A DNA stretch of 39,548 nt, taken from contig JAJRXM010000014.1 of the NCBI GenBank assembly GCA_024276275.1, forward strand, positions 1 to 39,548, read 5' to 3'. This stretch comes from Candidatus Zixiibacteriota bacterium. Lineage in GTDB: Bacteria > Zixibacteria > MSB-5A5 > GN15 > FEB-12. A program made the position numbers and the translations under genes. Positions 9,899-28,556 of this stretch are shown here, one piece after another; within the stretch, counting starts at the first letter, position 1, and every line of letters begins with the position of its first letter. The notes under the pieces were generated by a model. It was not told the DNA's origin. It saw only the letters and a list, made by a program, of their open reading frames with translations, and ran no database searches.

Positions 9899-11275
9899 AT
9901 GGATATACTTAAACCTGTTGCAAAATTTGTTTTAGATCCGCTTTTAGCGTTTCATGAAAACAGTTCTCATCCTGAATATTTGGAACTGTTTGAGAAAACT
10001 CAATATATGACAAAAGAAAAAATTGCTGACAGGCAATTTTTTCTTTTAAAAAACCTTCTCTTTCATGCTTATAAAAACTGTCCGTTTTATACAAATCGGT
10101 TTGAACAGGCAGGTTTCTATCCAAAAAATTTCCATTCACTGACAGATATAAAACAAATACCTCCCCTCACCAAACAGGAAATACAACAGCACTTGGAAAA
10201 TCTAAAAGCTCAGAATTATTCCAATAATACCCTTTCATTAAATCAAACAGGAGGCTCTACAGGCTCCCCCCTCAAATTCTATGTTGATTTACCTCGTCTG
10301 CATTCACGAAAAGCATCCACTTTTAGACATGACCGTTGGACGGGATGGGATATCGGAATGAAAACAGCTGTCCTTTGGGGACATCAAAGAGATTTCCTTC
10401 CTCAACAAAATTGGAAAAACAAAATCAGAGATGACTATTACGAAAGAAAACTCTTTTTGGATACCTCAAGTATCTCCAATGAAAAAATGCAAGATTTTGT
10501 TAAAAAATTACTGATTTTCAAACCTGAAATTTATTTGGCTTACGCAAATTCTATGTATTTGTATGCTCGATATATCAAAGAAAATAATATAGAACAGTTC
10601 AACCGACCTCAAGCAATTATTACTTCGGCTGAAGTTCTGACCCCCGAACAGCGAAAAACAATTGAAGAAGTATTCGAATGCAAAGTATTTAACAGATACG
10701 GCTGCCGCGAAACATCTGTTATCGCATCAGAATGTTCTGAACACAATGGAATGCATATTTCAGCGGAAACTTTGTACCTGGAATTCCAACAAAACGGAAA
10801 TGATGTCGCCGTAAATGAAACCGGTAAAATTATTATTACCGATTTGCTTAATTATGGAATGCCTTTGATTCGATATCAAATTGAAGATGCCGGTTCACCG
10901 GTCGACGGTGACTGTGCCTGCGGTAGAACATTACCCCGTATGGATATTTCCGGAGGTAGAGTAACTGACTTTTTGGTGACCTCAGACCGCAAAGTAATAT
11001 CGGGAGCATCAATGACTATTTATTTTATAGCTGTCATTGATGGAATAGCACAAGCACAAATTATTCAAAATTCGGTAGACGACCTGACACTCAGAATTGT
11101 CAAAAGCTCTTATTTTTCTGAACAAACCGAAAAAGAGATACAACAAAAAGTATCAGAATACTTTGGCAGCAGAATGAAATACAGCATCGAATATGCAGAC
11201 GAAATACTGCCGACAGCATCGGGAAAATATCGGTTTTCAATTTCTCATATAGACCCGATGGAGTATTTAAGCTAA
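9899..11275 (+). CDS. CapK/PaaK-like adenylate-forming protein (copy 1)
   Basis: A 458-residue member of the phenylacetate-CoA-ligase-like branch of ANL adenylating enzymes. The phosphate-binding loop is QTGGSTGSP (about residues 116-124). FNRYGCRETSVIASEC matches the A5 region that holds the adenylate. A CxCGR motif (DGDCACGRTLPRMD) marks the CapK branch often found in capsule loci. These proteins are thought to activate a carboxylic acid with ATP, but in polysaccharide clusters their substrate is unknown. The copy at 12793 has the same architecture, and the two flank the Wzy-like gene. No clear ribosome binding site precedes the ATG, which lies 17 bases after ugd. Confidence 0.82.
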   Translation: MDILKPVAKFVLDPLLAFHENSSHPEYLELFEKTQYMTKEKIADRQFFLLKNLLFHAYKNCPFYTNRFEQAGFYPKNFHSLTDIKQIPPLTKQEIQQHLENLKAQNYSNNTLSLNQTGGSTGSPLKFYVDLPRLHSRKASTFRHDRWTGWDIGMKTAVLWGHQRDFLPQQNWKNKIRDDYYERKLFLDTSSISNEKMQDFVKKLLIFKPEIYLAYANSMYLYARYIKENNIEQFNRPQAIITSAEVLTPEQRKTIEEVFECKVFNRYGCRETSVIASECSEHNGMHISAETLYLEFQQNGNDVAVNETGKIIITDLLNYGMPLIRYQIEDAGSPVDGDCACGRTLPRMDISGGRVTDFLVTSDRKVISGASMTIYFIAVIDGIAQAQIIQNSVDDLTLRIVKSSYFSEQTEKEIQQKVSEYFGSRMKYSIEYADEILPTASGKYRFSISHIDPMEYLS

Positions 11276-12792: not shown

Positions 12793-14154
12793 TTGACTAT
12801 CTATTCAAAATTATTAGAGAAGATGATTCTACCCTCTTTACTTGCCAGAGAAAATCAGTCATCAGCATTGTCTCACTTTACGTTTTTGCAAAAAAGCCAA
12901 TTCTGGTCAACAGATCGTCTTCTTACTTTTCAATTTGAATCGATAAAAAAGCTTTTGAAAGAAAGTTATAACAATACTGTCTATTACCGTATAATTTTGG
13001 ATGAACGAGGCTTGACTCCGGAATCATTTAAAGATTTTGATGACTTAAAAAAATTACCGGTTCTTACAAGAGATATTACATTTGACCGACAGGAACAGTT
13101 TTTTTCAAACAAGTTTAATAAATCTTCGCTGCAAGAATTTACTTCGGGCGGAACCACCGGACAACACGCTATATTATTTCGGGATATGGAAAGTTTTAAC
13201 ATAAAGCTTGCCATGGCATGGCGACATGAAACTTGGATGGGGAAATTTCCTTGTGATAAAATGGCTCTCATTTGGCCGGCTGCTATGGATATCAACGAAA
13301 ATGAACCGTTGAAGACAAGAATTAAGAATAGATATCTTTTGAGAACTATGATTTATAACGCAGGCGGTCTTGATGCTGCATCTTTGAATTTCATCAACAA
13401 AGACTTACTGGCGTTTAATCCAAAATATCTCAAAGTTTTCCCTTCTGCTTTATTTGGTTACACCGAATTTTGTATTGAAAACAATTTAAAGCATCCAAAA
13501 TACAAAGCTATACTTTCTACCGGTGAACCTCTTTCAGAAAATCAGAAAAAACTGTTTGAGCAAACGTATAACTGTCCGGTTTTTGATATGTACGGTTCCC
13601 GTGAAGTAGGAAATACATCCTCTGAATGTTCTGTTCATCATGGTATGCATATAGCGATGGAAACATCCTATGTTGAATTTATAAAAGACGGTCAAGAAGT
13701 AAAAAAAGGTGAAAGAGGTGAAATGCTTATCACCGACCTTACCAATTATGCTTTTCCTCTTATTCGGTATGCTATCAATGACTATGGTGCTCCGATGGAT
13801 GGAGCCTGCACATGTGGACGAGGTCTTGTACGAATGGACAAAGCATTAGGACGACTTTCTGATAATATTTTCAAACCGGACGGTTCAAAAATACTCGGGC
13901 ATGTACTCGGTATTGCCTTAACTTTTGAAGGTCCCCCTATCGGACAAACTCAGGTAATCCAAAAAACATACAATGATTTTGTAGTTAAAATCACGAACAA
14001 ACCTAAACCGACTCAGGAGATATTAAATTTTATTGATAGTGAAATGAAAAAATTAATCGGTGATTCTATCAATATCTCTATAGAAATTGTCGATGAAATA
14101 CCTAAAGAGAAATCCGGTAAAACAAGATTTATTAAATGTGAAATTGATGGATAG
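12793..14154 (+). CDS. CapK/PaaK-like adenylate-forming protein (copy 2)
   Basis: A 453-residue paralogue of the protein at 9899. It shows the same P-loop (SGGTTGQ, residues 118-124), adenylate-site segment (FDMYGSREVGNTSSEC) and CxCGR motif (DGACTCGRGLVRMD). The start is a TTG: GGAG at 12782-12785 sits seven bases upstream, and the next in-frame ATG would remove the first ten residues and leave no ribosome binding site. It follows the Wzy-like gene by 12 bases. The two copies are well diverged, so they are probably not redundant. The activated acid and the acceptor are unknown. Confidence 0.82.
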   Translation: MTIYSKLLEKMILPSLLARENQSSALSHFTFLQKSQFWSTDRLLTFQFESIKKLLKESYNNTVYYRIILDERGLTPESFKDFDDLKKLPVLTRDITFDRQEQFFSNKFNKSSLQEFTSGGTTGQHAILFRDMESFNIKLAMAWRHETWMGKFPCDKMALIWPAAMDINENEPLKTRIKNRYLLRTMIYNAGGLDAASLNFINKDLLAFNPKYLKVFPSALFGYTEFCIENNLKHPKYKAILSTGEPLSENQKKLFEQTYNCPVFDMYGSREVGNTSSECSVHHGMHIAMETSYVEFIKDGQEVKKGERGEMLITDLTNYAFPLIRYAINDYGAPMDGACTCGRGLVRMDKALGRLSDNIFKPDGSKILGHVLGIALTFEGPPIGQTQVIQKTYNDFVVKITNKPKPTQEILNFIDSEMKKLIGDSINISIEIVDEIPKEKSGKTRFIKCEIDG

Positions 14155-14172: not shown

Positions 14173-15363
14173 GTGAAAATACTTATTATAGATGAAGAAT
14201 TTCCCTACCCTCTTAACTCGGGCAAACGCCTGAGAACAAGCAATCTTACCTATGAGCTGGCCAAACTACATGACGTATCTTATTTGGCATTTGGTGAAGA
14301 CAAAAGTAAAGCGGTACATCATTTTAGATCAAAAAATATTCATTCTTTCCCTGTTACTCCATTGCAAAACAAAAAATCCGGTTTATCTTTTTATTTCAAA
14401 CTGTTGGCGAATTTCTTCTCACCGGACCCATATATTGTAACATCACATTATTCGAAAGAATTTGAAACAAAACTACAGGAACTGATATCGAGTAAAAATT
14501 TTGATGTTATTATTTGCGAATGGACGCCATATGCTCAGTATGTTAAAAACATCAACAATGTAAAATCTATTATAGTTGCCCATAATATTGAGTCAGATAT
14601 CTGGAAACGGTATCATGAAAATGAAACTAATCCGATAAAAAGATTTTATATCGGTATTCAATATAAGAAAGTTCTGAACTTTGAAAAACTATGTTTCAAA
14701 TGGGTCAACGGTGCCACCGCGGTATCATCTATCGATGCATCATTTATAGAAAAACTAAACCTTCCCTATAAACCTGCTGTAATTGAAAATGGTGTTGATA
14801 CCGATTTTTTTGTACCGTCAAATAACTCAACCAAGCCGCACCGCTTAGCCTTTACCGGTTCAATGGATTGGCGTCCGAACCAGGATGCTGCCGAATTTTT
14901 TGCCCATGAAATATTACCTCTGCTCAAAAAATCTATCCCGGATATTTAAGCATATTTTGTAGGAAGAAACCCTCCTGCTCATATTCAGGAGCTTGACAAT
15001 ATCGAGGGTATCACTATTACCGGCATGGTCGATGATGTCCGTACTTATATTGCAGATGCTGCCTTGTATATTGTCCCTCTCAGAATAGGAGGAGGTTCCC
15101 GATTAAAAATTCTAGAGGCAATGAGTATGCAAAAACCGATAGTATCGACAACGGTCGGTGCTGAAGGGTTGGAAGTAAGAGACAAACATGATATTTTAAT
15201 AGCTGATTCTCCTCAAGAGTTTTGTAATACAATTTTAAAAGCTCTGAAGGACAAAGCTCTTTGTGACAAAATCGCACAAAACTGATTTTCTTTGGTTCAT
15301 ATTAAATATAAATGGAGCAGTATCGGTAAAAAATTAAGCCGATATTTGTTAGAGTTGTCATAA
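14173..15363 (+). pseudogene. GT4 glycosyltransferase broken by two in-frame stops
   Basis: The frame starts at a GTG after AAAGGA and reads a GT4 N-terminus (LIIDEEFPYPLNSGKRLRTS) similar to the sugar transferases of PEP-CTERM/EpsH-type loci. It stops at TAA 14947-14949 after KKSIPDI. The same frame then continues without shift as AYFVGRNPPAHIQELDN, ITITGMVDDVRTYIADA, VPLRIGGGSRLKILEAMS and VSTTVGAEGLEV, the complete C-terminal donor-binding domain. A second stop, TGA at 15283-15285, follows KIAQN, and the frame runs on through YKWSSIGKKLSRYLLELS to TAA 15361-15363. That stop directly abuts the ATG of the next gene, the usual operon geometry. The intact ancestor would have about 396 residues. 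One fragment spans 14173-14949 and an ATG at 15025 opens another to 15285. Loss of function or base-calling error are the likely explanations. Confidence 0.85.
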
Positions 15364-17627: not shown

Positions 17628-18212
17628 ATGAAACGATTAATAAAAATGACCGTCATAGCATTTTTCTATATTTTAATGCTGCCTTTTGGGATATCCGCAA
17701 AACTGACCTATAAATTATTCGGTTCACATGTCTTATTTTCTATGTTTGGCGAGTTTCTTTCACTCATACCTAGTTTCCCCGGATATTTTAGCCGAGGTTG
17801 TTACTATCAAATGACACTCGCAAAAGCAGATGTTGAACTATTTTTAGCTTTTGGTTCCTACATCTCCAAGATTGAAACTAAAATTGGCAAAGGTGTCGGT
17901 ATCGGCGGACATTCCATTATAGGTCTTGCCGAGATTGGTGATAACACTGTAATAGCAAATTTTGTTTCTATACTTTCAGGAAGCAGACAGCATAATTTTG
18001 ATGATCCTAACGCTTCTATTGCCGATTCCAATAATCATTTTAACAAGATGATTGTCGGCAGCGATGTTTTTATAGGCGATCAATCTGTTGTTATGGCTAA
18101 TATTGGAGATAAATCAATAATCGGTGCAGGTTCTATTGTAGTCAAAGAAATACCTCCATATTCAATTGCTGTCGGTAACCCCGCAAAAGTTGTAAAAGAA
18201 AGAACTAAATAA
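17628..18212 (+). CDS. Membrane-anchored hexapeptide acyltransferase (copy 1)
   Basis: A 194-residue protein with an N-terminal hydrophobic helix (about residues 8-25) followed by PFGISAKLTYKLFG and an amphipathic stretch. A left-handed beta-helix follows from about residue 80: KIETKIGKGVGIGGH, IGLAEIGDNTVIANFVSILS. The likely catalytic histidine is in SRQHNFDDP, and the end is PPYSIAVGNPAKVVKER. The family transfers acetyl or other acyl groups to sugars. The hydrophobic N-terminus suggests it works at the inner membrane on lipid-linked sugars. Its ribosome binding site is GAGG five bases before ATG. The next gene is a close paralogue, and a third copy is at 24367. Confidence 0.82.
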   Translation: MKRLIKMTVIAFFYILMLPFGISAKLTYKLFGSHVLFSMFGEFLSLIPSFPGYFSRGCYYQMTLAKADVELFLAFGSYISKIETKIGKGVGIGGHSIIGLAEIGDNTVIANFVSILSGSRQHNFDDPNASIADSNNHFNKMIVGSDVFIGDQSVVMANIGDKSIIGAGSIVVKEIPPYSIAVGNPAKVVKERTK

Positions 18213-18262: not shown

Positions 18263-18874
18263 ATGAAAAGCATTTTTAAAAAAATTATACTTTTTACAAT
18301 TTTTCTGCTCATCTCACCGTTTGGATATAGCTCAAAATTATTATATCTTTGTTTTAAATCTACTATTCTCTATAACTTTTTTGCCCAATTTTTTGCTCTT
18401 ATACCCGGTATACTTGGAACACTTGTCCGTTCATCATTTTATAAACAAACCCTAAAAAGTTCATATCTCGATTTAGATATCGGTTTTTGTTCTTTCTTTT
18501 CTAAAATTGATACTGAAGTAGGTAAATCTGTTCTTATTACAGGACATACCCAAATCGGGCTGGCAAAAATTGGAGATTATACTGTTATAGCAAATTACGT
18601 TTCTATTCTCTCAGGCAGATATCAACATAACTTTACAGACCCTGATAAAAAGATTACCGATGAAGTAAATGATATCCATAATTGTATTCAAATCGGCTCT
18701 CATTCGTTTATCGGTGACAATGCAACCGTTATGGCTGATATAGGTCATCACACGATTGTAGGAGCAGCGAGCAACGTAATTAAACCTCTTCCGCCTTATG
18801 TTGTCGCTGTCGGAAACCCTGCAAAAATTGTAAAAAAACGTAGTAAAGAACCTAGTAAGAATGTCACTGTATAA
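18263..18874 (+). CDS. Membrane-anchored hexapeptide acyltransferase (copy 2)
   Basis: A 203-residue paralogue of the preceding protein. It has the same plan: an N-terminal hydrophobic helix, a PFGYSSKLLYLCFKS linker, and a left-handed beta-helix with shared signatures (IGLAKIGDYTVIANYVSILS, YQHNFTDP, FIGDNATVMADIG, PPYVVAVGNPAKIVKKR). The two genes look like a tandem duplication that has since diverged. It probably acylates a second position, or a different sugar, of the same polysaccharide. Its ribosome binding site is folded into a predicted hairpin, unlike that of copy 1. About 230 bases without a recognised gene follow before the next reading frame. Confidence 0.82.
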   Translation: MKSIFKKIILFTIFLLISPFGYSSKLLYLCFKSTILYNFFAQFFALIPGILGTLVRSSFYKQTLKSSYLDLDIGFCSFFSKIDTEVGKSVLITGHTQIGLAKIGDYTVIANYVSILSGRYQHNFTDPDKKITDEVNDIHNCIQIGSHSFIGDNATVMADIGHHTIVGAASNVIKPLPPYVVAVGNPAKIVKKRSKEPSKNVTV

Positions 18875-19101
18875 AACCTTCTATTTTGTTCGAAAATTGC
18901 ACATTATGGAAAGTTTTCAGGAACTTCCTATTTAAAAACGACTACTCTATAGTATTGATATACTAAGACTTACAACTCCCGATGAAAATATGTCGGTCGG
19001 CATGAAATTTGAAGTTGAAACTGTGAAAATAATTCTGCTTCTTGTAACTACAATGAGTATAAGTGTAATAAACTAATTTGAGAAAGTATTTACAACTGAC
19101 A

Positions 19102-20277
19102 ATGAAAAAAATTATCTGCTTAACAACTTTTACGGTTCTTATTATAATTGCAGGTGTTCTCTATAAATTAAATCAAATGAACGCTTTTATATGGCTTCCT
19201 GATTATATTACTAATTCACCTACATTTGAAGAAACCGACGGTATCACCGATATTATTTTTGTTGTAATTGATCACTGGGAACCCGGAGGAAATGAATATC
19301 CTCTTTTAGCCTGGATGGAAAACTACCGTAAACTAGCAGATAAACATATTGACTCCGACGGTATAAAACTTCAACATACCTGGTACTACCCTATTGATCA
19401 ATTTCGAGGAAATGAAGTCGATTCTATTGTACAACTCAGTCGTGAAGGTTACGGTGATGTCGAACTGCATTTCCATCACCATGGCGATGATTCCGAATCA
19501 TTCAGAAAAAAGATGAAAGCTGGTCTTGATTCTCTAAGAGCTCACGGTGCCTTAAGAACCGATGATTCTCTAGGCTATTTTTCATTTGTACACGGCAACT
19601 GGGCTTTGGATAACTCAAGAGCAGGTCAAGGAAGCGGCATGTATGGCGTAGATGACGAGATCAGCATTCTAAAAGAACTTGGATGTTATGCCGACTTTAC
19701 ATTCCCTGCTATGACCCAGACAGCTCAACCGTCTTTGGTTAATAAAATATACTACTGCGTAGATGACCCTGATAAACCTAAATCTCATGATGAAGGAACG
19801 GTATCATCGGTAGGATATTCTCCGAATGAAGAAGAATTTATGATTTTTGAAGGCCCCTATATGATTGACTGGTCTGATTGGCGGTTTAAAACTCATCCGA
19901 CTTTTGAAGACGGAAATCTATACTGGGAAATACCGACAACTTTTGATCGATTTGAAACCTGGCTTTCTGCCAATATCCACGTAAAAGACCGTCCGAATTG
20001 GCAATTTGTTCGTCCGTTTACCCATGGTTGTGATTTAAGACATGAAGATGCTTTTGATAATATATTAGGTAAAAACATAGACAAAATGCTTACAGAAGTA
20101 GAAAAAAAGTATAAAAACAGCGAAAATTACCGATTACATTATATGACGGCTCGAGAGGCATATAATGTCGTAAAAGCTGCCGAAGCAGGACATAACGGGA
20201 ATCCTAATGATTACCGTGATTTTATCCTGCCAAAATATAACTATACTCCGGATTCACTGTTGAATCTCGGTAAATAA
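19102..20277 (+). CDS. Membrane-anchored deacetylase-fold-like protein of an uncharacterised family
   Basis: A protein of about 391 residues from the ATG at 19102. That start gives a clean signal-anchor (MKKIICLTTFTVLIIIAGVL). A TTG at 19078 would add eight residues, and neither start has a good ribosome binding site. The body has blocks DHWEPGG, VELHFHHHGDD (near residue 122), FVHGNWALDNS (near 163), GCYADFTFPA and DDPDKPKSHDEG. I recognise these from an unnamed family often found next to glycosyltransferases. The histidine- and aspartate-rich blocks resemble metal sites of polysaccharide deacetylases (NodB fold), but the TFDDG motif is absent. It probably acts on exported polysaccharide. 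The enzymatic role is inference. Confidence 0.72.
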   Translation: MKKIICLTTFTVLIIIAGVLYKLNQMNAFIWLPDYITNSPTFEETDGITDIIFVVIDHWEPGGNEYPLLAWMENYRKLADKHIDSDGIKLQHTWYYPIDQFRGNEVDSIVQLSREGYGDVELHFHHHGDDSESFRKKMKAGLDSLRAHGALRTDDSLGYFSFVHGNWALDNSRAGQGSGMYGVDDEISILKELGCYADFTFPAMTQTAQPSLVNKIYYCVDDPDKPKSHDEGTVSSVGYSPNEEEFMIFEGPYMIDWSDWRFKTHPTFEDGNLYWEIPTTFDRFETWLSANIHVKDRPNWQFVRPFTHGCDLRHEDAFDNILGKNIDKMLTEVEKKYKNSENYRLHYMTAREAYNVVKAAEAGHNGNPNDYRDFILPKYNYTPDSLLNLGK

Positions 20278-24366: not shown

Positions 24367-24969
24367 TTAGATTGTTTTATTTGCAGTAGGTAATAATCTG
24401 GCTGGATTTCCCATAGCCATATTGTTATCGGGAATATCGTTTGTTACAACTGCTCCGACACCTACAATACAGTTATTTCCGACAGAGGCTGATACTATTG
24501 CCCCTTCCCCTATCCAGGTTTTTTCACCGATAGTAATCTGTCTATTTTCACCGTTTCCCTCAACACCATTTGTAATATTAGAAGAATTCCCATGTTGATT
24601 TAAACCTGATGTAATAGAAACTCTGCTGGCTATCCGTACATTTTTTTTGATATCTACTAATCCGATTACACAATATGCACCGATTCCTGCATCAGCTTTT
24701 ATCCGGGCTCCCCGTTTTGAAAAAAATGAGCCGTAACTTATCACCGCAGAAGGATGATAATAATCCAAAGTAAGCATATAATAAACCCGACGTACATGAT
24801 CCCCTATAAATCCTGGGAACAAAGCGACTAAATGAGCCCCAAATGAAAAAAAGAATTCGTATGATGTAATTTTTTTTTCACAGTATGACATCATACCAAA
24901 AGGTACAATAAGAACTACCAATGGCAGAGAGAATATAAATAATAGAATTTTACACATTACTTTTAACAT
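24367..24969 (-). CDS. Membrane-anchored hexapeptide acyltransferase (copy 3)
   Basis: A 200-residue protein on the same plan as those at 17628 and 18263. It has an N-terminal hydrophobic helix (ILLFIFSLPLVVLIVPFGMM), then an alpha-rich linker ending in YYMLTLDYY, then a left-handed beta-helix (ISYGSFFSKRGARIKADAGI, GLVDIKKNVRIASRVSITSG). The likely catalytic histidine is in LNQHGNSSN, and IGEKTWIGEGAIVSASVG and the tail MAMGNPARLLP follow. It is the last gene of the carrier-protein operon, 15 bases after the second GNAT gene. This links that operon to the polysaccharide locus, because its closest relatives in the window lie there. The acyl donor is unknown. Acetyl-CoA is usual for the family. 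Confidence 0.8.
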   Translation of the reverse strand: MLKVMCKILLFIFSLPLVVLIVPFGMMSYCEKKITSYEFFFSFGAHLVALFPGFIGDHVRRVYYMLTLDYYHPSAVISYGSFFSKRGARIKADAGIGAYCVIGLVDIKKNVRIASRVSITSGLNQHGNSSNITNGVEGNGENRQITIGEKTWIGEGAIVSASVGNNCIVGVGAVVTNDIPDNNMAMGNPARLLPTANKTI

Positions 24970-24984
24970 AATATTCCAATCTTA

Positions 24985-25998
24985 CTAATAGACATCTAAG
25001 AAGAATGAATCAACTGATTCAATATCAACATCTTCTACCGTTTTCTTAAAAGCTCCAAGATACAGATTAAGCTCTCTTTGACTTTTTCGAAAAGAAAGTT
25101 CATTAAATACTTCACGAGGATAATAATCAATATCAGGAACAAAAGCTGCCGTAAAATTTGATTTCTTTATCATCTCTCTTAATACATTCTCTATAAAATC
25201 ATTTTGTTCTTTTTTGGTCAGTCTGTCAATAAGCATATTTTCAAAATAAACATTTGTTACTTTCTTCTTTTCGTCAAGAACTTGTAATTCTATTAGATTT
25301 ACTACTCCTAAAATCTCATTATTTCTCTCATACACAAACGAACTTGAAAATGCCCTGTTTAAAAATACGTATTCAATATTGTCATCATTTATTCTTTTGT
25401 AAAGAGTTACATCAGGTTTATAATTAGATATCAGATTTTTAATTTGAGGTAAATCAATACTTTCCAACAATCGAACTGAATTTGTTCTTTTATGTGAAAG
25501 TTTTGATTCAAGAATTTGCCTAACTCCGACCAGATATCTAAACGTATCAACTTTCTTGATAACCATACCTCGCCTTTTATACAATCTTTCAATTAATACA
25601 TCAAATGGATCGTCATCGGGACGGGACTGTCTAACATCATAATACAACTCATAACCTTTTGCTTCAGCACGACTTAGTAGTTCTAAAAGTTGAGGGATTA
25701 ATAGTTGCGCTGCTTGGTGATTTTTCTTAATTGTAAAAAAAGTTCCAAATACTGTTTTGAAATCCCGCCCTTTATAATTTATACAATACGGTATTAAAGC
25801 TTGAAAAGATGCATAGCTACCGTCTTGTGATTCTTGAGCAAGAGTAAGATTCGGGTCAGCTTTTGGTAAATCAAGATACATTTCTAAAACTTGGGGAGTA
25901 TATTCTACGCAGGGCAAGTCCCACGTTTGTATCATTAAGTCTGATACTTTTTGTAAGTCCGGGTTCGATACAAACTTGTAATTTACTGCCGGTTCCAT
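24985..25998 (-). CDS. Tandem-GNAT-fold protein lacking the acetyl-CoA loop (copy A)
   Basis: A 337-residue paralogue of the adjacent protein at 26005. The two align without gaps from the first residue (MEPAVNYKFVSNPDLQKVSD against MKPAEGFTFEYGPDLKKISD). The N-terminal half has the GNAT strand and helix pattern, but the QGRGLG acetyl-CoA loop of the sister protein is replaced by QAAQLL (residues 95-100). The C-terminal half looks like a second GNAT-type domain (SSFVYERNNEILGVVNLIEL, FTAAFVPDIDYYPREVF). It ends FFLDVY, like the sister. Two GNAT domains in one chain recall Fem aminoacyltransferases. The missing loop suggests it does not use CoA, or that it is a non-catalytic partner. It starts seven bases after the sister's stop, with no ribosome binding site, so it is probably coupled. 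Confidence 0.7.
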   Translation of the reverse strand: MEPAVNYKFVSNPDLQKVSDLMIQTWDLPCVEYTPQVLEMYLDLPKADPNLTLAQESQDGSYASFQALIPYCINYKGRDFKTVFGTFFTIKKNHQAAQLLIPQLLELLSRAEAKGYELYYDVRQSRPDDDPFDVLIERLYKRRGMVIKKVDTFRYLVGVRQILESKLSHKRTNSVRLLESIDLPQIKNLISNYKPDVTLYKRINDDNIEYVFLNRAFSSSFVYERNNEILGVVNLIELQVLDEKKKVTNVYFENMLIDRLTKKEQNDFIENVLREMIKKSNFTAAFVPDIDYYPREVFNELSFRKSQRELNLYLGAFKKTVEDVDIESVDSFFLDVY

Positions 25999-26004
25999 GC
26001 GAGA

Positions 26005-27009
26005 TTAATATACATCAAGGTAAAAGGTTGATACTTCTTCTATCCCGTCAGGTAAAACACCCTCTTTTAAAGGAGCTATATATAAATTCAATTCTCTTGG
26101 TACCATTCTAAATCTATATTTTTTAAAAACAGAGGTATCAATATATCCGATATTCGGCATAAATGCAGTATGAAATTTATCTCTTTGTAAATCAAGCATA
26201 ACATCGCCGATAAATTCTTCTATTTCATCATCTGACATTTTTTCAAAAGAGACATTATCAAAATAGACATTTAATTTTTTTTCTGTATCAGATTCTAAGA
26301 CCTCAAGCAGAAGAAGATTGATAAATCCTTTAACCTGATTATTTTTTTCATAGAGATAGGTTCTACTGTGGGGACGGTCTACGAACAAAAATTGCATATC
26401 TTCATCTGGGATAATTTTATATAGTTCAGTATTTGTACCGATATTTTTTACCAACGGCTTTATATTTTCAACATCTTGAGCAATCGCAATACAAGTATTT
26501 CCGGAAGTTTTTTGGGGAAGAATCGGTTGTACTAACTCGTTTAATGCGGCAATATAGCGACAAACATTAACAACTTTCACAGGCAGGTTCATTTTTTTAA
26601 ATACTTTTTCTACCGCATAGTTTGAAACTGCCCCGACTTCACACATTGTAACATATAGGTCGTATCCTTTTTCGATAGCTTTTTCAATTAGTACTCCCTG
26701 TTGCGGTCCACCTAATCCTCTTCCTTGAAAATCAGCGGAAACAGTAAGAAAACTGGCAAATACCGCCTTATAAGCTTTATTATAGTAACTGATATCAAAA
26801 GGCATATATGCCTGAAAAGATGCGACTGTACCGTCTTCAGATATTTGGGCAACATTTAGTTCTCTGTCCCCACTAGGTCGTTTAATGTGTAGTGCTAAAA
26901 GACCTTCATCGTAATTCCAACAAGGTTTTCCCCATGTAGTGCAAATAAGATCAGATATTTTTTTTAAATCCGGTCCATATTCAAATGTAAATCCTTCGGC
27001 AGGTTTCAT
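26005..27009 (-). CDS. Tandem-GNAT-fold acyl or aminoacyl transferase (copy B)
   Basis: A 334-residue protein. The N-terminal GNAT domain has the pyrophosphate-binding loop DFQGRGLGGPQQ (QGRGLG at residues 95-100) after the strand KAVFASFLTVSA. The C-terminal half has a second GNAT-like pattern (RTYLYEKNNQVKGFINLLLL, FHTAFMPNIGYIDTSVF). The ATG at 27009 was chosen: AAAGG lies 8 bases upstream and it aligns exactly with the paralogue's start. A GTG at 27018 overlapping the ligase stop would add three residues. Its position directly after an amino acid:carrier-protein ligase suggests it takes an aminoacyl group from the carrier phosphopantetheine, or an acyl group from CoA. The acceptor is unknown. 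Family fold moderately sure; reaction inferred. Confidence 0.72.
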   Translation of the reverse strand: MKPAEGFTFEYGPDLKKISDLICTTWGKPCWNYDEGLLALHIKRPSGDRELNVAQISEDGTVASFQAYMPFDISYYNKAYKAVFASFLTVSADFQGRGLGGPQQGVLIEKAIEKGYDLYVTMCEVGAVSNYAVEKVFKKMNLPVKVVNVCRYIAALNELVQPILPQKTSGNTCIAIAQDVENIKPLVKNIGTNTELYKIIPDEDMQFLFVDRPHSRTYLYEKNNQVKGFINLLLLEVLESDTEKKLNVYFDNVSFEKMSDDEIEEFIGDVMLDLQRDKFHTAFMPNIGYIDTSVFKKYRFRMVPRELNLYIAPLKEGVLPDGIEEVSTFYLDVY

Positions 27010-27014
27010 AACTA

Positions 27015-28013
27015 TCACCTTTCACCTAATAGTTCTTGAGACGCTGTTTTTAATCTCTCAATTCCGTTTTCATACCCTATTTGTGCATATACAGCATAGA
27101 CCAATCTTTCCAGTCCAAAAGCAGCACAACCGGTATGAACATCACTGCCGTCAGCAGAAGTAATTGAAAAATTTGAGCCAAAGAAATTTTCATGATAGTT
27201 AAACGAGGCAGCGGCAATTGATTTTTCTTCTGATATATCAAGGTTGAGTTCAAATTTAAGTTCATTTGCCAGTTGAAAAAATCTCAGAGATTTAAATTCA
27301 GTTGAGAAAAAAGGATCCGAGGCTGTTTCTATTGAGGCAGTCAGGTCTAAGATTTCAATAAGTCTCCAAATTATTTCCATGCTTTCTTTTCTGGCAGCAA
27401 TAACTTTTTCTTTTTCTCCGATAAAAATAATCTCCCGCATCGAAAATTCCCACAACCTGTCTAAGTCGGTAATATTTTTGGATTCATACCTAAAACAACT
27501 TCCCTTTGCGGTAAATACTTTTAGGCCGTCTTGGACATCATCAAACTGCATCCCCTCTAATGCCCCATAGGCATGATAGCAGACAGCAGGAGATAAACAG
27601 TATTCCGGTGTAGCAATTTCATCGATTGATTCTAAATGCAGCGCTTTGTTACTGCTGTGACGATCAGCAAAGGCATTTAAACGATCTAAATCTTCGACAA
27701 GATGAAAGGCAAATGTCAATGAATGTGCACACGATGTAAAATAGCCGGCTCTTCTTAACCAATCGGTCGGTATGAGTGTATTATAGGTTCGAGGTGGAGC
27801 TTCATATTTTAAGATACCTAGTTTTTCAAAAAATAAATCAAATGCCTGTAGTAAGGCTAAAAATTCGCCACCCTTGGCAATAACTCCGGTACCTTCTTTG
27901 TATACATCGCCCTTTTTACAGAGCATTTCATATACGTCGGGGAAAAAGGAATTATTTTCTCGAACTCTTTGTTTTATTACTTTAGGTTGTACAACCAACC
28001 GCTCACTTTGCAT
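27015..28013 (-). CDS. Class II aaRS-like amino acid:[carrier protein] ligase
   Basis: The intact part is 332 residues and holds a whole class II synthetase-like catalytic core without tRNA-binding domains. Motif 2 is CFRYE (173-177), followed by LWEFSMREIIFIG. Motif 3 is CAAFGLERLVYA (296-307). Likely zinc ligands are Cys145 (SPAVCYHAYG), Glu177 and Cys296, as in atypical SerRS and in the Bradyrhizobium-type ligases that load amino acids onto carrier-protein phosphopantetheine instead of tRNA. Those enzymes prefer small amino acids; specificity here is unknown. The carrier-protein gene lies immediately upstream. Positions count from ATG 28013, which has no ribosome binding site. The better start is at 28211 but is followed by an in-frame TAA (see the next entry). 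The stop overlaps the start region of the GNAT gene. Confidence 0.82.
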   Translation of the reverse strand: MQSERLVVQPKVIKQRVRENNSFFPDVYEMLCKKGDVYKEGTGVIAKGGEFLALLQAFDLFFEKLGILKYEAPPRTYNTLIPTDWLRRAGYFTSCAHSLTFAFHLVEDLDRLNAFADRHSSNKALHLESIDEIATPEYCLSPAVCYHAYGALEGMQFDDVQDGLKVFTAKGSCFRYESKNITDLDRLWEFSMREIIFIGEKEKVIAARKESMEIIWRLIEILDLTASIETASDPFFSTEFKSLRFFQLANELKFELNLDISEEKSIAAASFNYHENFFGSNFSITSADGSDVHTGCAAFGLERLVYAVYAQIGYENGIERLKTASQELLGER

Positions 28014-28211
28014 TTTATCAATTAGTTGTTCAACTTTTTTCTTAATTAGTTCAAGATTTTCAGGTAGTTGAATTTCGATAATTAGTGATTTTGTCGGTAT
28101 ATCAAAAAGAGAAGATTGTATTTGAGAGTCACAATAACAGGCTCTTTTTGCGATTTCTTTACAAATATCTTCGGGTAATTTTTAAGAAAAAGAAATTGAA
28201 AATTGAGTCAT
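28014..28211 (-). other. 5' extension of the ligase gene, interrupted by in-frame TAA
   Basis: ATG 28211-28209 lies in the same frame as the ligase, two bases after the carrier-protein stop, and has AGGA seven bases upstream. It reads MTQFSISFS and then TAA (28184-28182). After that the frame is open for 56 codons into the ligase: KLPEDICKEIAKRACYCDSQ, then SLFDIPTKSLIIEIQLPENL and ELIKKKVEQLIDK. This reads like a folded strand-helix-strand-helix domain, not random sequence. The ancestor codon was probably AAA, CAA or GAA. The gene therefore looks like a 398-residue ligase with one nonsense codon at position 10. Translation of the core would then need read-through or an internal start. Confidence 0.7.
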
Positions 28212-28213
28212 TG

Positions 28214-28447
28214 TTATGTCCTGACAAGATCTACAAGTTTGGTCAATGTTCTCGCTTGGATAAATTCATTATCATCAATGGTAATATCAAATTTTTTTTC
28301 GAGAGCTAACAAGATAGAAATCGAATTAACCGATTCAACACCTAATTCGGCATAAATATCGCTTTCTTTAGGTATCTCACCTTCAATTTTACCGACTTCT
28401 TCTAATATAGATATAATGCTTTTAGTAATCGTCTCGTCTGTATGCAC
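28214..28447 (-). CDS. Acyl carrier protein-like (aminoacyl carrier candidate)
   Basis: A 77-residue acidic helical protein of normal carrier-protein size. The phosphopantetheine site is Ser39 in AELGVESVNSISILLALEKK, where the usual LGxDSL is LGVESV, and the third-helix region KFDITIDDNEF is typical. The start is a GTG with AAGGA upstream. It lies directly before the ligase gene. In known amino acid:carrier-protein ligase systems the dedicated carrier is also the neighbour, so this is probably the acceptor of the activated amino acid. It needs a phosphopantetheinyl transferase, which is not in this window. It is the first gene of a minus-strand operon and begins about 54 bases after a terminator, so a promoter should lie in that short gap. 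None is convincing. Confidence 0.85.
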   Translation of the reverse strand: MHTDETITKSIISILEEVGKIEGEIPKESDIYAELGVESVNSISILLALEKKFDITIDDNEFIQARTLTKLVDLVRT

Positions 28448-28500: not shown

Positions 28501-28532
28501 TAAAAACCGGATACTTATTAAAAGTACCCGGT
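28501..28532 (-). terminator. Rho-independent terminator of the receptor-PorV operon
   Basis: On the minus strand ACCGGGTACTT (28532-28522) and AAGTATCCGGT (28516-28506) form an 11-bp stem with one G-U pair and a five-base loop, followed by TTTTATTAATT. It lies 25 bases after the stop of the PorV-like gene and separates this operon from the carrier-protein gene downstream. Confidence 0.85.
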
Positions 28533-28556
28533 CTTATATATATCGTAATTTTACTT

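Follow-up and report, generated by a model that had tools for sequence, protein, structure and literature searches.

In the butirosin pathway (BtrI/BtrJ/BtrK/BtrH), an amino acid is built on a carrier protein and moved to a sugar, with an ATP-grasp ligase and a papain-like transferase as key enzymes; to our knowledge, no N-myristoyltransferase (NMT)-like enzyme takes part in it. Carrier proteins can also be loaded by synthetase-like ligases, for relatives of which loading of Gly and Ala has been reported (PMC9437257), and the fate of the amino acids loaded in this way is mostly unknown. For an Agrobacterium-type operon encoding an amino acid:[carrier protein] ligase (aa:CP ligase), transfer of the amino acid to a cell-surface sugar was predicted in 2010 by Iyer and colleagues (PMC2922099, note added in proof). 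NMT, whose known substrates are proteins with an N-terminal glycine (PMC4964394), is said to be lacking in prokaryotes (PMC5868815). Here we describe a gene block of a Candidatus Zixiibacteriota bacterium (contig JAJRXM010000014.1; the window is the whole stretch of 39,548 nucleotides that was analysed), in which genes for a carrier protein and an aa:CP ligase-like protein adjoin a gene whose predicted product resembles NMT.

The block lies on the minus strand (24367-28447) and consists of five closely packed genes, separated by 2-15 bp or overlapping. The genes are genuine and form one operon, and all five were found where an earlier interpretation of the DNA letters, the sequence-only reading, had placed them. 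The carrier protein (28214-28447, 77 amino acids) matches Pfam PP-binding (E=4.8e-10), and its phosphopantetheine site, Ser39 in the motif LGVES, is unchanged across 8 relatives; the sequence-only reading had named the same site. It is followed by the ligase-like gene (full frame 27015-28211), by two tandem GNAT proteins that share 35% identity, GNAT1 (26005-27009, 334 amino acids) and GNAT2 (24985-25998), and by a membrane-anchored acyltransferase of the left-handed beta-helix type (LbH; 24367-24969).

An NMT-like tandem GNAT protein

The AlphaFold2 model of GNAT1, built from seven sequences, had a predicted local distance difference test (pLDDT) value of 91.5 and a predicted template modelling (pTM) score of 0.89. 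It has a tandem fold rather than that of a single-domain GNAT. When the model was compared with the PDB using Foldseek, the best 50 matches by E-value were all NMTs, aligned over the full length with template modelling (TM) scores of 0.74-0.82, E-values of about 1e-22 and 13-17% identity. The PDB holds very many NMT chains, so that this ranking alone may mislead, and a library of viral models provides a fairer one. There, eight of the ten best matches were annotated as NMT and the remaining two were unnamed (TM 0.57-0.78, E 1e-13 to 1e-19). By comparison, a FemAB-family protein reached TM 0.49 (E 3e-7) and phage GNATs stayed below TM 0.45. A Fem-type transferase, the analogy drawn in the sequence-only reading, was accordingly rejected as the closest kin: NMT reached TM values up to 0.78 against 0.49 for FemAB, and a profile comparison with a Fem-like protein of the same phylum gave no match. 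Because the tandem GNAT is NMT-like and not Fem-like, the question of which substrate is donor and which is acceptor is reopened.

At the sequence level, NMT was visible to profiles only. A GNAT profile searched against 177,635 PDB sequences placed NMT in the first five positions (E 0.0018-0.0036), while phmmer searches of the PDB with single GNAT sequences returned a non-significant best E-value of 0.36 for GNAT1 and no match for GNAT2. A Pfam NMT_C match cannot by itself be taken as specific, since a Fem-like protein in another genome (G063) also matches it (E=0.009), the only other NMT_C match in the phylum. Structural support for kinship between the modelled GNAT1 and NMT is strong, and sequence support is modest. 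We refer to GNAT1 as NMT-like, as its model suggests, rather than classing it as NMT, because the Pfam NMT/NMT_C cut-off is not reached.

Three motifs of GNAT1 are candidate counterparts of functional sites of the NMT and GNAT families. Phe87-Leu88 (26746-26751, minus strand) aligns with the oxyanion-hole Phe-Leu of NMT (..NFLCV..), which in yeast NMT is Phe170/Leu171 (PMC4964394); it is invariant in eight GNAT1 orthologues and replaced by FF in GNAT2. The P-loop QGRGLG (26710-26727, minus strand) would form the acyl-coenzyme A (acyl-CoA) pyrophosphate site, and the orthologue pattern [QH]GxGL[GA], with His for Gln in about half of the sequences, fits the GNAT consensus Gln/Arg-x-x-Gly-x-Gly/Ala (PMC4964394). 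GNAT1 ends in Asp-Val-Tyr (26008-26016, minus strand), as do all eight orthologues and GNAT2, and a distant Myxococcota relative (locus L040) ends in DVF. Among GNATs, the use of the C-terminal carboxylate as catalytic base is described as unique to NMT (PMC4964394). GNAT2 is confined to the window genome, the other block copies carrying one GNAT. Its P-loop lacks both glycines (HQAAQLL in place of QGRGLG), which makes use of acyl-CoA by GNAT2 improbable.

Ligase, conservation and genomic setting

The ligase profile matched Bll0957-type aa:CP ligases best among PDB sequences (124 bits), with type-2 SerRS second (83 bits). The window gene itself matched PDB 4h2w (1.1e-27) and NCBIfam PRK07080 (3e-39), and the full-length ligase of a congener (L008) scored 139 bits with PRK07080 against 112 bits with PRK00960. 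PRK07080 scores of 134.9-139 bits miss the NCBIfam curated cut-off of 357, and the protein appears from these comparisons to be a divergent homologue of aa:CP ligases, below the PRK07080 equivalog level. The similarity to type-2 SerRS is confined to the catalytic domain (the profile was matched from about position 160-182 of 518), and the tRNA-binding domain is absent, relatives being 395-407 amino acids long. A true SerRS was rejected on account of the better aa:CP ligase match and the missing tRNA-binding domain, in agreement with the proposal in the sequence-only reading of a class II synthetase-like ligase devoid of tRNA-binding domains. Cys145, Glu194 and Cys296 (332-amino acid numbering) are invariant and align with the positions of Bll0957 that we take to be its zinc ligands, and presumably form a Cys-Glu-Cys site. 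By family, the substrate is likely to be glycine or alanine, most likely glycine.

Homologues of the ligase are found with other partners. On a Bacillus-type plasmid the partners are a BtrH-domain protein and polyketide genes, and on Streptomyces plasmids they are ketosynthase and condensation-domain genes. On an Alkalihalophilus plasmid (L022:5794-8046), a BtrH-domain protein, an aa:CP ligase homologue annotated as hypothetical and a carrier protein adjoin, an arrangement suggestive of an acceptor step by a papain-like enzyme in that system.

The gene order carrier-ligase-GNAT-LbH was found again in two congeners (L008 and L009), two members of the same family (L010 and L013), one of the same order (L011) and in Myxococcota (L018), and carrier-ligase-GNAT was kept in a Krumholzibacteriota contig (L017). 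The block copies thus come from eight genomes of three phyla, with LbH at the same position in seven of the eight. Within the window's phylum, ligase and GNAT co-occur in the identical 6 of 132 genomes; with the first GNAT profile, occurrences were detected in 2/379 and 1/80 genomes of two further phyla. The contig scan used two strict peptide patterns, and the real distribution is probably wider. A plasmid search with the Myxococcota GNAT as query matched nothing. Pairwise identities of the components correlate across copies (r 0.76-0.91), and the ratio of nonsynonymous to synonymous substitution rates (dN/dS) of the block genes against the congeners is low in those comparisons that allowed an estimate of dS (about 0.05-0.12; about 0.05-0.08 for the ligase and GNAT1). 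Since the order recurs and ligase and GNAT co-occur in the same genomes, the idea that carrier, ligase and tandem GNAT act as a conserved unit, put forward in the sequence-only reading together with a search for the block in other genomes, is supported. None of the three outcomes that this reading had named as speaking against it was observed, since SerRS is not the first match of the ligase, the GNAT has more than one domain and the block is conserved.

More distant relatives of the NMT-like enzyme were found in a Myxococcota sweep that covered 379 genomes. One of them (L040, 8614-12860; 24% identity) lies within an exopolysaccharide (EPS)/exosortase-type locus, beside a carrier protein, an AMP-forming ligase above the TIGR03098 cut-off and a TIGR03099-like pyridoxal phosphate (PLP) decarboxylase. 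The tie of this GNAT family to carrier proteins is therefore kept with an unrelated loader, and the gene content suggests that the L040 locus is a second, different carrier pathway with the same transferase family. Two very distant tandem GNATs (L051:161-1237 and L052:2396-3616; profile E-values 6e-16 and 1e-8) have P-loop-like motifs, and one of them ends in ..YYLDFR.

The AlphaFold2 model of LbH is a left-handed beta-helix with a long N-terminal hydrophobic helix, as anticipated for a membrane-anchored acyltransferase, and its Foldseek matches are maltose, perosamine and serine acetyltransferases. His126 is invariant in 10-12 sequences and is probably catalytic, by analogy with these enzymes. 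Two paralogues are encoded on the plus strand in the EPS operon (17628-18212, 30% identity; 18263-18874, 33% identity), where the sequence-only reading had seen relatives of the gene.

Five copies of the block, those of the window, L008, L009, L010 and L013, adjoin polysaccharide genes. The L011 copy (genome G043) is flanked by ssb- and LpxD/BamA-like genes and the L018 copy by a spermidine-synthase/TPR gene and a QueG-like gene, and neither has EPS neighbours; neighbour names given without a profile search were read from the sequence. Because these two copies sit among other genes, the acceptor is not necessarily the adjoining exopolysaccharide, and the view of the block as part of an EPS operon is weakened. 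The polysaccharide link of the sequence-only reading is consequently left with weak support, five of the eight copies speaking for it and the G043 and Myxococcota copies against it, and its idea of an amino acid-decorated polysaccharide had already been predicted for a different aa:CP ligase operon (PMC2922099).

Other features were noted in these regions. A terminator-like hairpin with a 14-pair stem and a T-rich tail (28503-28535, minus strand) separates the carrier gene from the gene upstream. In L010 (12046-13098) and L013 (4379-5431), another GNAT protein of 350 amino acids and a polysaccharide deacetylase are encoded beside the cassette; this GNAT matches the NMT-like profile over the N-terminal GNAT domain only. 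The EPS region of the window encodes a 399-amino acid protein (19078-20277, plus strand) with about 86% identity in two congeners and no Pfam match at E<=1. The EPS operon also encodes two CapK/PaaK-like proteins (9899-11275 and 12793-14154, plus strand), of the AMP-ligase type as judged by eye, the former with a weak match to Pfam AMP-binding and the latter with none.

Candidate reactions and the state of the locus

The reading that we place first, although we hold it as somewhat short of probable, is that of a mobile carrier cassette in which the NMT-like enzyme N-acylates a carrier-bound amino acid from acyl-CoA and LbH transfers the product. By family homology, the ligase would adenylate a small amino acid (glycine being the likeliest) and load it onto the phosphopantetheine arm of the carrier. 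The N-terminal GNAT domain of GNAT1 would then bind acyl-CoA and acylate the free amine, giving an N-acyl-aminoacyl-S-carrier, in parallel with the acylation of N-terminal glycine by NMT, and the C-terminal carboxylate of GNAT1 may serve as the base. A glycyl-thioester phosphopantetheine arm would resemble an extended peptide chain whose N-terminal glycine is free. Finally, the membrane-anchored LbH might move the N-acyl-aminoacyl group to a membrane acceptor, either a lipid or a saccharide intermediate; this is the weakest step, because the nearest solved relatives of LbH use CoA. N-acylation is favoured by the kinship with NMT, the intact CoA loop, the glycine-loading ligase family and the presence of a second acyltransferase for release.

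Several results weigh against this reading. The donor thioester cannot be told from a homologous fold. An hhalign comparison with yeast NMT (sequence checked against PDB 2p6e) gave a probability of 12% (E 0.0025) over 190 aligned columns, and Pfam NMT_C matched GNAT2 only (1e-4; 22.5-23.5 bits against a cut-off of 27.9), with no match to GNAT1. The cassette LbH is absent from the Krumholzibacteriota copy, the genome of which has only a distant LbH, and within the top 50 matches the solved structures nearest to LbH are CoA-type acetyltransferases and not carrier-dependent LpxA/LpxD. No carrier protein was seen beside the distant tandem GNATs of L051 and L052, so the wider NMT-like family is not always carrier-linked. 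Lastly, the ligase frame is interrupted in the window genome itself.

The aminoacyl-carrier might instead be the donor, in keeping with the logic of the sequence-only reading: the tandem GNAT would bind the aminoacyl-phosphopantetheine at its thioester site and use it to aminoacylate a saccharide or lipid at an amine or hydroxyl group, and LbH would then acetylate the result. Carriers of amino acids usually act as donors, a gene for a papain-like transferase (BtrH N-terminal domain) adjoins an aa:CP ligase homologue, five of the eight blocks lie beside EPS genes and the prediction made for the Agrobacterium-type ligase operon (PMC2922099) is of this kind. However, the GNAT resembles NMT more than Fem proteins and retains the CoA pyrophosphate loop, neither the block nor the genes beside it include a recognised sugar aminotransferase, and the G043 and Myxococcota copies have no EPS neighbours; we therefore regard this assignment as unlikely, although it deserves serious attention. 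Instead of decorating a polymer, the cassette could also make a small diffusible compound, either an N-acylated amino acid or a short aminoacyl derivative, which LbH would release or cap. The patchy, stand-alone distribution (6/132, 2/379 and 1/80 genomes) and the occurrence of other aa:CP ligase homologues in secondary-metabolite clusters would fit such a product, but the block encodes no exporter, thioesterase or polyketide/peptide synthetase, and LbH is membrane-anchored and of the sugar-acyltransferase type, which makes it distinctly improbable. The NMT-like enzyme might also have a protein N-terminus as its substrate, with carrier and ligase engaged in a reaction of their own; this would agree with the known substrates of NMT (PMC4964394). 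We consider it very improbable, given a conserved block devoid of a candidate protein substrate, the perfect co-occurrence of its gene with those of ligase and carrier, to which it is directly adjacent, and the carrier protein that also adjoins the distant L040 relative.

Compatible with each of these readings is decay of the locus in the window genome. The ligase open reading frame of the sequence-only reading (27015-28013) starts at an internal Met; the correct frame begins at 28211, as in the 395-407-amino acid relatives, and is broken by a premature TAA at codon 10 (28182-28184, minus strand), the one internal TAA in frame, where two congeners have GAA. Between this stop and the internal Met at 28013, no ATG, GTG or TTG start is present. 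A second gene of the same 40-kb contig is also affected: the glycosyltransferase gene 14173-15363 (plus strand), 13 kb from the ligase, has in-frame stops at 14947-14949 (TAA) and 15283-15285 (TGA); its counterparts in two congeners are uninterrupted, at 401 and 409 codons. Together with the loss of the P-loop in GNAT2, these stops would mean that function has been lost. On the other hand, the dN/dS of the ligase frame beyond the stop (0.055-0.075) indicates strong purifying selection, and with the low dN/dS of ligase and GNAT1 any decay must be very recent, while nonsense codons in two genes within 40 kb could be assembly consensus errors. The stops are either such errors or very recent gene loss; given the early ligase stop, the pathway may be failing in the window genome, or the sequence may be wrong. 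We judge decay to be a real prospect, though on balance an improbable one.

Comparison with known systems

We propose, with considerable reserve, that the locus encodes a bacterial NMT-like enzyme that acylates a carrier-bound amino acid, probably glycine, rather than a protein N-terminus, to give a building block for lipid or polysaccharide modification; if so, eukaryotic NMT may belong to an older bacterial family of carrier-linked acyltransferases. No description of this gene set was found in the part of the literature covered. The cassette names a testable next enzyme for amino acids loaded by synthetase-like carrier ligases. A carrier-linked NMT relative in bacteria would be relevant to how N-myristoylation arose in eukaryotes and would indicate that a class of acyl-amino-acid lipids or glycans still awaits description.

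With the Bradyrhizobium Bll0957 type (PDB 4h2w/3mey), the ligase shares the class II core, the absence of a tRNA-binding domain, the zinc-site pattern and an adjoining carrier protein. The Azospirillum operon used for comparison, which encodes a carrier, an acyl-CoA dehydrogenase, a ligase, DUF1839 and a glycosidase, differs in lacking an NMT-like enzyme. Exosortase-A-associated EPS genes (TIGR03098/TIGR03099 with a carrier) are connected to the cassette through the NMT-like protein of L040, although the loader there is an AMP-forming ligase with a PLP decarboxylase and not a synthetase-like ligase. FemABX/MprF-type enzymes share the GNAT fold (two GNAT domains in FemABX) and the logic of transferring activated amino acids; however, they use aminoacyl-tRNA, and the FemAB model is structurally far (TM 0.49). 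Eukaryotic and giant-virus NMTs share with GNAT1 the full-length tandem GNAT fold, the Phe-Leu motif, a conserved C-terminus and an intact P-loop in the N-terminal domain, whereas the protein described here is bacterial, has about 13-17% identity to them in structural alignments and is encoded beside an aminoacyl-carrier system.

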